This document shows, in pieces, positions 1 to 3,135 of a stretch of 64,000 nucleotides of DNA. Source of the DNA: OCS155 cluster bacterium AG-426-D23 (GTDB lineage: Bacteria; Actinomycetota; Acidimicrobiia; Actinomarinales; Actinomarinaceae); the NCBI GenBank assembly GCA_003213165.1, contig QCNO01000002.1, positions 1-64,000 of the forward strand. The letters are read 5' to 3'. Both the position numbers and the translations under genes were made by a program. The notes beneath the pieces are model-generated. The model did not search any database and had not been told where the DNA came from. It worked only from the letters and a program-made list of their open reading frames with translations. Within the stretch, counting starts at the first letter, position 1. The number at the start of each line of letters is the position of its first letter.

Positions 1-173
1 ATATTGTTTAATACAGCCAGCCAATCTTTATCTGACGTTAATGCAAAACCAAGCATTCCCCTGAAAAAATTAATTACAAGATACGATGTAGCAATAGTTA
101 AAGCTGCAGATCCGACAGATGAGAACAAGCTCTCCTGTAATGACTTTGCGGTCTTTTTAATTAAATCAACCAT
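1..173 (-). CDS. amino-acid ABC transporter permease (AapM-like), N-terminal fragment running off the window
   Basis: Minus-strand open frame starting ATG at 173 (MVDLIKKTAKSLQESLFSSVGSAALTIATSYLVINFFRGMLGFALTSDKDWLAVLNN...), overlapping the TAA of the upstream permease (TAATG); position after the AapQ-like gene. Confidence 0.65.
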   Translation of the reverse strand, partial: MVDLIKKTAKSLQESLFSSVGSAALTIATSYLVINFFRGMLGFALTSDKDWLAVLNN

Positions 174-1972
174 TACCTCTCCACTATTTTCATTTTTCTA
201 TTGTAGTAATTAATTATTGTTGAAATAGTCAAGCTTACTGTACTGTAAAACGCCATCCAGATTAAAAATACTGGCAAAGTCTGACCTTCTTGGTTGTAAA
301 GGGTTTGCCCCACAGCAACAATTTCTGGATATGCAACAGCTATACCTAAAGACGTGTTTTTTGCAAGGTTTAGATACTGATTGCCCATAGGTGGAAGCAT
401 TACCCTTATTGCCTGTGGTAAGACTATTAACCTTAATAGTGCACCTCGGCCTAACCCAAGAGAAAGACCTGCTTCAGACTGTCCTTTTGAAACTGCCATT
501 ATTCCAGCTCTAACAACTTCAGAAATGAATATTGCTGTATATAGAACAACCCCCAGCCAAATAGCGAAATAGCCTACTGAGAGACTCTTACCAAACCCAT
601 CAGCATATCTTTTAAACTTAGTAGTGCCAATTTGTTCTATTTTTGGTCTTGATAATTCTAGTGGTTTACTGTCTGTTACTCGAATATCGTATGTTTTTTC
701 GTTTATTTTTACAGTATCTCCCTGAGATACAAAAACTTCTTCGATTACACCTGTATACTTTGCATAAATGGATATCTGTTGATTCAAATCACCCTTTAAG
801 TCTTTTGCTGTAGCTTTTGCTATTACATCACCTTTTGTTACTTCTGTGCCGGGGACAGCAATCCAATCTATAATATCTGCTCTCTTCATACCATCCAGCT
901 GTGCATCTAATACAATTTTTGCCTCTGGGTTCCAATATAGTTTATTATTAACACCGTCAAAAAATTGAGGAACGCCCCAGTCTGCTTTAAAAACAATTTC
1001 ATCGCCAACTAGAAAATTAGAAAGCCCCATCCCTACAGAGGAAAACATTAAGACAACGACTAACAATACAATTATGACATTTAATATTATTTTAAAGTAA
1101 TCATCATCACTGTAAATTCCCTGAGCTTCTTCTGATTTTTTGCTATCTATAAACTTCTTTGTAGACCTGTAACCAATAAATACTGCAATTGAAGAGAAGA
1201 GTATCTGATAAAAAATTGCAGGCAAAAGGTCAACTCCTGTTGAAATATATCCTGCTAAGAATCCTATAACGCCCATAACTCGATATCCTCCATACCAGCC
1301 AGCGACCAGTAATCCAAAAAAGATACCAACTGACCAAAGAAAAGGCCTGGTTTCTCTACCCTCTCTTTCAAGAATTTGTACTCTCCACTTATAAATTTTG
1401 TTAGCCAAAATAAAAATGGCTAGTAAGTAAACCCAAAATAAATATGCTGTAGGTTGTCTGTTTAACCAAGGAAAGGCAATACCTTTTGCACTTACATGAA
1501 GATTGTAAGTTCCTACATCAAAAACTTCTAATCTAGGAAAAGTTAATACAAAAGCTTGGAAAAAGAAAATTTGTACTAATAGAGGAACGTTACGAACAAC
1601 TTCTAGTAAACCTGTAGAAGTTTTCTCTACTATATAGTTTTTTGATAAACGAGCAATACCAAGAAATGTACCCAAAAATGTTGCTGCAAATATACCTGTT
1701 ACTGTGACCCTTAACATATTGAGCATCCCGACCTGGATCATCTGTCGACCAGAATTAGGGAGAGTATACATTCCTTCTGCAATCGAAACTCCCGGCGTTT
1801 CTCCTAGCCATCCCCATGAAAAAGCAATATTAGTTTGTTCAAGATTTACGACTGCATTTTGGATATAGCTCCAGATTATATAAAGAAGACCTACTAAAAA
1901 TACTATTTGTGAAGCCCACTTAAGAAATACTACATTCCTAAAAAACGATAGTGTCTTAAGTGCATTTTTCAT
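173..1972 (-). CDS. aapQ: general L-amino acid ABC transporter permease (AapQ-like) with a large extracytoplasmic insertion
   Basis: Motifs such as VEVVRNVPLLVQIFFFQAF and EVVRAGIMAVSKGQSEAGLSLGLGRGALLRLIVLPQAIRVMLPPMGNQYLNLAKNTSLG typical of HisM/AapQ permeases. Confidence 0.88.
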   Translation of the reverse strand: MKNALKTLSFFRNVVFLKWASQIVFLVGLLYIIWSYIQNAVVNLEQTNIAFSWGWLGETPGVSIAEGMYTLPNSGRQMIQVGMLNMLRVTVTGIFAATFLGTFLGIARLSKNYIVEKTSTGLLEVVRNVPLLVQIFFFQAFVLTFPRLEVFDVGTYNLHVSAKGIAFPWLNRQPTAYLFWVYLLAIFILANKIYKWRVQILEREGRETRPFLWSVGIFFGLLVAGWYGGYRVMGVIGFLAGYISTGVDLLPAIFYQILFSSIAVFIGYRSTKKFIDSKKSEEAQGIYSDDDYFKIILNVIIVLLVVVLMFSSVGMGLSNFLVGDEIVFKADWGVPQFFDGVNNKLYWNPEAKIVLDAQLDGMKRADIIDWIAVPGTEVTKGDVIAKATAKDLKGDLNQQISIYAKYTGVIEEVFVSQGDTVKINEKTYDIRVTDSKPLELSRPKIEQIGTTKFKRYADGFGKSLSVGYFAIWLGVVLYTAIFISEVVRAGIMAVSKGQSEAGLSLGLGRGALLRLIVLPQAIRVMLPPMGNQYLNLAKNTSLGIAVAYPEIVAVGQTLYNQEGQTLPVFLIWMAFYSTVSLTISTIINYYNRKMKIVER

Positions 1973-2055: not shown

Positions 2056-3135
2056 TTACCTTGCTGGTGGTGCGTAAACTAATCCGCCTTCTGTCCAGCG
2101 AGCGTTAGCTCCACCTTCTCTGTAGAGACCTAATGGATTTAAGTTTCTTGAGAAGATTTCATCGTAGTTACCAATTTGTTTTACAACGTTGTAATACGCA
2201 TCGGCACTAAGACCCATCTTTGTTTGAAGCTCTCCGTCATTCTTACCAAATAATCTACCCATTTCTGGTGCAGCATCATAATCAAATGAATCGATGTTAG
2301 CTCTTGTAACTCCGTACTCATCTGCAATGATTGTTGCATAAACAGTCCAGTTAATGATGTCAGCCCATTGGCTATCATTTGATCTGTATGTTGGACCTAA
2401 TGGTTCTTTTGAAATTGGTGATTGTGGGAAAATTGCCCAGTCATTAAGAGCGTCATTGACTGCTCTTCTACCAACTAATCCTGAACCGTCAGTTGTAACA
2501 ATATCACACTCACCAGCAATGAACTTGTCAATTGCCTCTGAGAATGCTTCAACTGTAACAAGCTCAATTGTGGCTCCTACAAGTCCAGCACCTTCTGTAA
2601 TATTCTTTTCTGTGGTTGTACCAGCATTTGTACATACTCTTAGTCCGTCAATATCAGCAAGAGTTGAAGATGATGAAAGTCCATCAGAAACTCTTCCCAT
2701 TAATTGCTGACCGTCAAAGTAAGTTGTTGGTCCAAAATCATTACCAAGCTCTGTGTCTCGGCTTTGAGTCCAAGTTGTGTTTCTTATCAACACATCAACT
2801 TCTCCAGCGCTAAGTGCTGTAAATCTTTCAGCTGCAGTGAGTTGTTTAAATTCAACTTTACTGTAATCACCGAAGATAGCAGCAGCAACTGCATAACAGT
2901 AGTCAACGTCGAATCCTGAATAAGAACCGTCGTCCCCTACTTCAGTGAATCCAGTTGCACCTGTGCTAACACCGCACTTAAGGAAGCCTCTTTCTTGAAC
3001 TTGTTCAAGCGTTGACTCGCCTTCGTGGTCATGTTCTTCTTCAGTAGCCTCAACAGCTGCTTCGTCAGTTGTGTCTCCACAAGCAACGATAACCATTGCG
3101 AATACTAAAAGAAAAACAATTGCTTTTTTATTCAA
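2056..3135 (-). CDS. aapJ: amino-acid ABC transporter substrate-binding lipoprotein (AapJ-like)
   Basis: Lipobox VIVACGD, then LEQVQERGFLKCGVSTGATGFTEVGDDGSYSGFDVDYCYAVAAAIFGD; adjacent permeases; SD aaggag upstream. Confidence 0.9.
   Translation of the reverse strand: MNKKAIVFLLVFAMVIVACGDTTDEAAVEATEEEHDHEGESTLEQVQERGFLKCGVSTGATGFTEVGDDGSYSGFDVDYCYAVAAAIFGDYSKVEFKQLTAAERFTALSAGEVDVLIRNTTWTQSRDTELGNDFGPTTYFDGQQLMGRVSDGLSSSSTLADIDGLRVCTNAGTTTEKNITEGAGLVGATIELVTVEAFSEAIDKFIAGECDIVTTDGSGLVGRRAVNDALNDWAIFPQSPISKEPLGPTYRSNDSQWADIINWTVYATIIADEYGVTRANIDSFDYDAAPEMGRLFGKNDGELQTKMGLSADAYYNVVKQIGNYDEIFSRNLNPLGLYREGGANARWTEGGLVYAPPAR

Follow-up and report, generated by a model that had tools for sequence, protein, structure and literature searches.

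A lipoyl-type domain inserted in the AapQ amino-acid permease of a Candidatus Actinomarina subclade

Can a domain of the lipoyl or biotinyl type reside in the outer loop of an amino-acid importer and, if so, what might it do there? The question is raised by a permease gene of OCS155 cluster bacterium AG-426-D23, in which the region ahead of the conserved core was proposed, from the nucleotide sequence, to hold about 130 extra residues folded as a barrel-sandwich domain. The gene lies in a 64 000 nt stretch of DNA, referred to here as the window.

The permease and its operon

The gene is a 599-aa ORF on the minus strand (173..1972) with about 10 transmembrane (TM) helices, and encodes the AapQ permease, part of an amino-acid ABC importer of the aapJ-Q-M-P type in Candidatus Actinomarina. 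Two profiles score above their cut-offs in this ORF, namely BPD_transp_1 (37 bits, cut-off 26.4), corresponding to the core with its EAA loop, and HEQRo_perm_3TM (44.2 bits, cut-off 42.2), corresponding to the N-terminal 3TM domain. The Foldseek matches of a full-length AlphaFold2 model include the Art(QN)2 permease 4yms. The EAA coupling region (437..520, minus strand; residues 485–512, EVVRAGIMAVSKGQSEAGLSLGLGRGAL) is cytoplasmic and anchors the topology of the protein.

The window also contains a complete aapJ-like gene (2056..3135, minus strand) for a substrate-binding lipoprotein with the lipobox VIVAC and an acidic linker, which is the probable partner of the segment inserted in AapQ. 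The linker that follows the lipobox (2980–3135) is of an EEEHDHE type, both acidic and His-containing, and species differ in having a long or a short version of it, with no relation to the AapQ insert. Only the 5′ end of aapM (1..173, minus strand) is present, because the window begins at base 1 of the contig (C2) and the gene is truncated there. In a relative at 98% identity the gene order is aapJ, aapQ, aapM (600 aa) and aapP (242 aa), and this synteny places all three partner genes alongside aapQ. AapM (L033:4800-6602), at about 600 aa, is much above its usual length. Its extra length consists of membrane segments; the protein has no similar insert and no outer domain, and it was rejected as a second bearer of the lipoyl-type domain.

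The AapJQMP general L-amino-acid permease of Rhizobium and other bacteria has the same EAA core in AapQ, the same 3TM N-terminal domain and the same J-Q-M-P order. The AapQ proteins of Sinorhizobium and Variovorax, however, are shorter (385 and 396 aa) and have a short loop at the position where the Actinomarina subclade adds its domain.

Extent, fold and topology of the insert

The peptide on which the original prediction was based is found on the minus strand at residues 320–458 of the 599-aa ORF, corresponding to window positions 600–1015. It lies within the loop between TM7 and TM8 (575..1024, minus strand; residues 317–466). Comparison with sister AapQ proteins confirms that an extra segment is present, but its length had been overestimated: only about 84 residues (approximately 349–432; 677..928, minus strand) are inserted, and the other 55 or so are common to the short forms. 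Where the two proteobacterial AapQs have only a short extracytoplasmic loop ahead of the EAA helix, this protein has an 84-residue insert, a difference that marks a variant of AapQ and does not bear on membership in the family. The insert is placed outside the membrane, as had been proposed, because of hydropathy, the charge pattern of the loop and the site of insertion, just ahead of the TM helix that leads into the EAA motif; TM prediction, charge counts and the helices of the model delimit the same extracytoplasmic loop.

When the region was scanned alone, the Pfam profile Biotin_lipoyl (PF00364) matched with 24.0 bits (cut-off 22.1, E = 3.4e-5), whereas on the full-length window protein the score is 19.2 bits and falls below that cut-off. 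All 19 aligned homologous inserts match the profile (best E 1.2e-10), and two full-length sister proteins (L065, 27.8 bits; L068, 28.9 bits) clear the cut-offs of both Biotin_lipoyl and BPD_transp_1. The same profile gave no match in the short-form permeases or in an unrelated insert of family f29 (described below). Against the PDB, a profile of the insert matched the lipoyl domain 1lab at 8.5e-5. An AlphaFold2 model of the isolated insert, which is of moderate confidence (pLDDT 70–78 over the core), matched lipoyl and biotin-carrier domains in Foldseek with probability 1.00 (3crk_C, TM 0.74). The full-length model (mean pLDDT 67, about 60 over the insert core) likewise matched lipoyl/BCCP domains with probability 1.00, including the lipoyl domain 3crk_C (TM 0.75). 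The predicted barrel-sandwich fold is therefore borne out.

The companion suggestion of an HlyD-type domain is not. Profiles of HlyD and CusB remain below their cut-offs (HlyD_D23, 16.4 bits against 30), and lipoyl domains of the E2/BCCP kind fit better. Adaptors such as HlyD, MacA and CusB share with the insert a barrel-sandwich hybrid located outside the cytoplasmic membrane, and their profiles match it weakly, but the insert belongs to an importer permease and lacks both the alpha-hairpin and the beta-barrel.

The carriers of PF00364, which include 2-oxo-acid dehydrogenase E2 and BCCP, resemble the insert in sequence profile and predicted fold. In contrast to these proteins, the insert is extracytoplasmic, is contained within a permease, and has no tight beta-turn that presents a conserved lysine for modification. 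Alignment with the lipoyl proteins of the genus, together with the alignment of the inserts, puts Asn397 (782..784, minus strand) at the lipoyl-lysine position. The species and the rest of its clade have Asn here, most members of two sister clades have Lys, and L061 has Thr; the hairpin exceeds that of the lipoyl proteins of the genus by about six residues. The claim that a modifiable lysine is missing thus holds for this species, while some sister species have a non-conserved Lys in the longer hairpin. Given the extracytoplasmic position, the altered hairpin and the variable residue, modification is unlikely, and we strongly infer that the insert is neither lipoylated nor biotinylated.

Distribution, selection and origin

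The genus sample comprised 42 genomes, which constitute the entire order in the sample, and 39 of them carry the AapQ gene. The insert occurs in 20 of these 39 (19 complete, 1 partial) and is cleanly absent from the remaining 19. As originally supposed, it is not the standard AapQ loop: precisely these residues are missing from the 19 sister species, and the domain is also absent from the Acidimicrobiia outgroups surveyed and from the two proteobacterial AapQs. In an AapQ tree computed without the insert columns, all insert bearers form one clade nested among short forms, a pattern of one change (support 100/97), and the AapM tree agrees with a single gain (support 90/79). No loss was seen in the trees within the bearer clade, all 20 genomes of which keep the insert. 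The insertion happened once, in the ancestor of one Actinomarina subclade: an ABC importer permease has genuinely acquired a domain, and only within that lineage. There is little doubt, in our view, that this AapQ carries an 84-residue lipoyl-type domain in an extracytoplasmic loop and that it was gained a single time.

In the wider class sample, AapQ is present in 139 of 395 Acidimicrobiia genomes, where the protein is about 510–530 aa long and where only the Actinomarina subclade has added the lipoyl-type domain. At E ≤ 1e-60, the AapQ type was matched in Acidimicrobiia only across the sample of the phylum Actinomycetota. In the open-licence literature, we found no text in which ABC permeases are linked to domains of the lipoyl or barrel-sandwich kind.

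The insert is maintained by purifying selection. Its dN/dS values within two clades are 0.066 and 0.046, compared with 0.06–0.08 for the middle part of the protein, and because these values are low and near those of neighbouring parts, the insert appears to be kept as a folded and used portion of the permease. In comparisons between clades, no part of the protein is as poorly conserved as the insert (33–46% identity).

A candidate donor is encoded in the same genomes. This lipoyl protein stands alone, is about 90 aa long and occurs in many genomes of the genus; its gene lies beside pyruvate-dehydrogenase-type E1 genes, and the insert profile matches it at E 1.8e-9 in the genome of the window. 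In one such locus (L083:1501-1773; G000:C2:166741-166983), the gene adjoins those for 2-oxo-acid dehydrogenase E1 alpha and E1 beta and has no neighbouring E2 catalytic core. The insert profile matches stand-alone proteins at about 1e-9 to 1e-10 and E2 subunits at about 1e-5, so that the cell's own lipoyl gene is a plausible source of the captured domain. Pairwise identities to the insert (approximately 26–31% for the stand-alone protein and 17–31% for E2 subunits) are too low to settle the donor. The probable ancestor of the insert is a cytosolic lipoyl carrier domain, for example this stand-alone protein; that origin is plausible but not proven.

Within the class sample, just one further family has a large extra segment at this loop, namely f29 of Acidimicrobiia (L095:1000-2900 approx., L096 and L097), in which about 110 residues are inserted at exactly the same point. 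This segment is probably helical and has no Pfam match above cut-off. It was rejected as a homologue of the lipoyl-type insert, since Biotin_lipoyl does not match it and hhalign gives a probability of 0.2%.

Possible roles of the domain

A precedent for an outer domain of this kind is the P2 domain of MalF (residues 91–271) in the E. coli maltose importer MalFGK2, which contacts the binding protein MalE (PMC3150292). Like MalF, the permease described here is one of the permease subunits of its type I ABC importer and bears a folded domain in one of its extracytoplasmic loops; the correspondence would be one of function, not of homology. The two belong to different permease families, P2 is larger (about 180 residues against 84), the insert has a lipoyl-type fold, and its contact with AapJ is putative. 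MalF-P2 does not appear among the Foldseek matches listed for the insert and full-length models.

By analogy, the insert may sit at the edge of the translocation path, where it would dock or gate the lipid-anchored AapJ. It could hold AapJ close to the gate or stabilize the closed complex, as MalF-P2 does for MalE. A docking or gating platform for AapJ is the likeliest of the roles that we weighed, and we favour it tentatively. Against it, the lipobox-linker region of AapJ does not vary systematically with the presence of the insert in a species, short-form transporters evidently function when the domain is missing, and the low identity of the insert between clades is unlike that expected of a tight, conserved docking surface.

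The main rival, which we consider unlikely without dismissing it, is that the insert is a structural or near-neutral passenger, kept only because misfolding would harm the permease. Because a barrel-sandwich domain begins and ends at neighbouring points, the loop would tolerate such an insertion; the f29 segment demonstrates that this site accepts foreign domains, and divergence between clades is faster in the insert than in the rest of the protein. A passenger would nevertheless have to survive in all 20 genomes of a strongly streamlined clade, with no loss seen and at a dN/dS of about 0.05–0.07. The bacteria of Candidatus Actinomarina are abundant in the sea, are strongly streamlined and seem to favour external amino acids as their carbon sources (PMC7771536). 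That such genomes retain an extra domain on a main amino-acid importer suggests that uptake really benefits.

The cell, a member of the Actinomycetota, probably has no outer membrane, and an extracytoplasmic domain might instead tether the transporter to the cell wall, a polymer or a further surface protein, or might sense an external ligand. A Met-Lys pair and Lys/Tyr positions conserved beyond the core residues would suit such a surface module, but profile scans of the insert returned no wall-binding family above cut-off, and we regard this role as improbable. Far less probable still is a true lipoylated or biotinylated carrier that provides the permease with redox or acyl chemistry. The fold and the Lys of most species in the two sister clades would agree with it; the Asn and Thr replacements, the extended hairpin and an extracytosolic location, remote from the ligases, argue otherwise. 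That the segment is an extended standard loop or an assembly artefact is scarcely credible: AapQ length does vary within Acidimicrobiia, but the presence and absence of these residues within the genus and their recovery in 20 separate assemblies refute this reading, as does the short loop of the two proteobacterial proteins.

For the explanation as a whole, in which a singly gained, selected and unmodified lipoyl-type domain serves AapJ docking or gating, we judge the case to be evenly poised. A fuller history, in which a cytosolic lipoyl carrier entered the outer loop of the importer, lost its chemistry and became the AapJ docking or gating module, with unrelated outer domains acquired independently at this loop at least twice in Acidimicrobiia, is possible but rather doubtful. 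If it were true, the AapQ loop would be a general point of entry through which evolution tunes importers that depend on binding proteins. Sister species with and without the domain provide a natural experiment on the effect of an outer domain in an ABC importer. Variation in AapQ is not confined to this loop: the 569-aa proteins of L098 and L099 (genomes G324 and G338) have about 50 extra residues elsewhere in the sequence.
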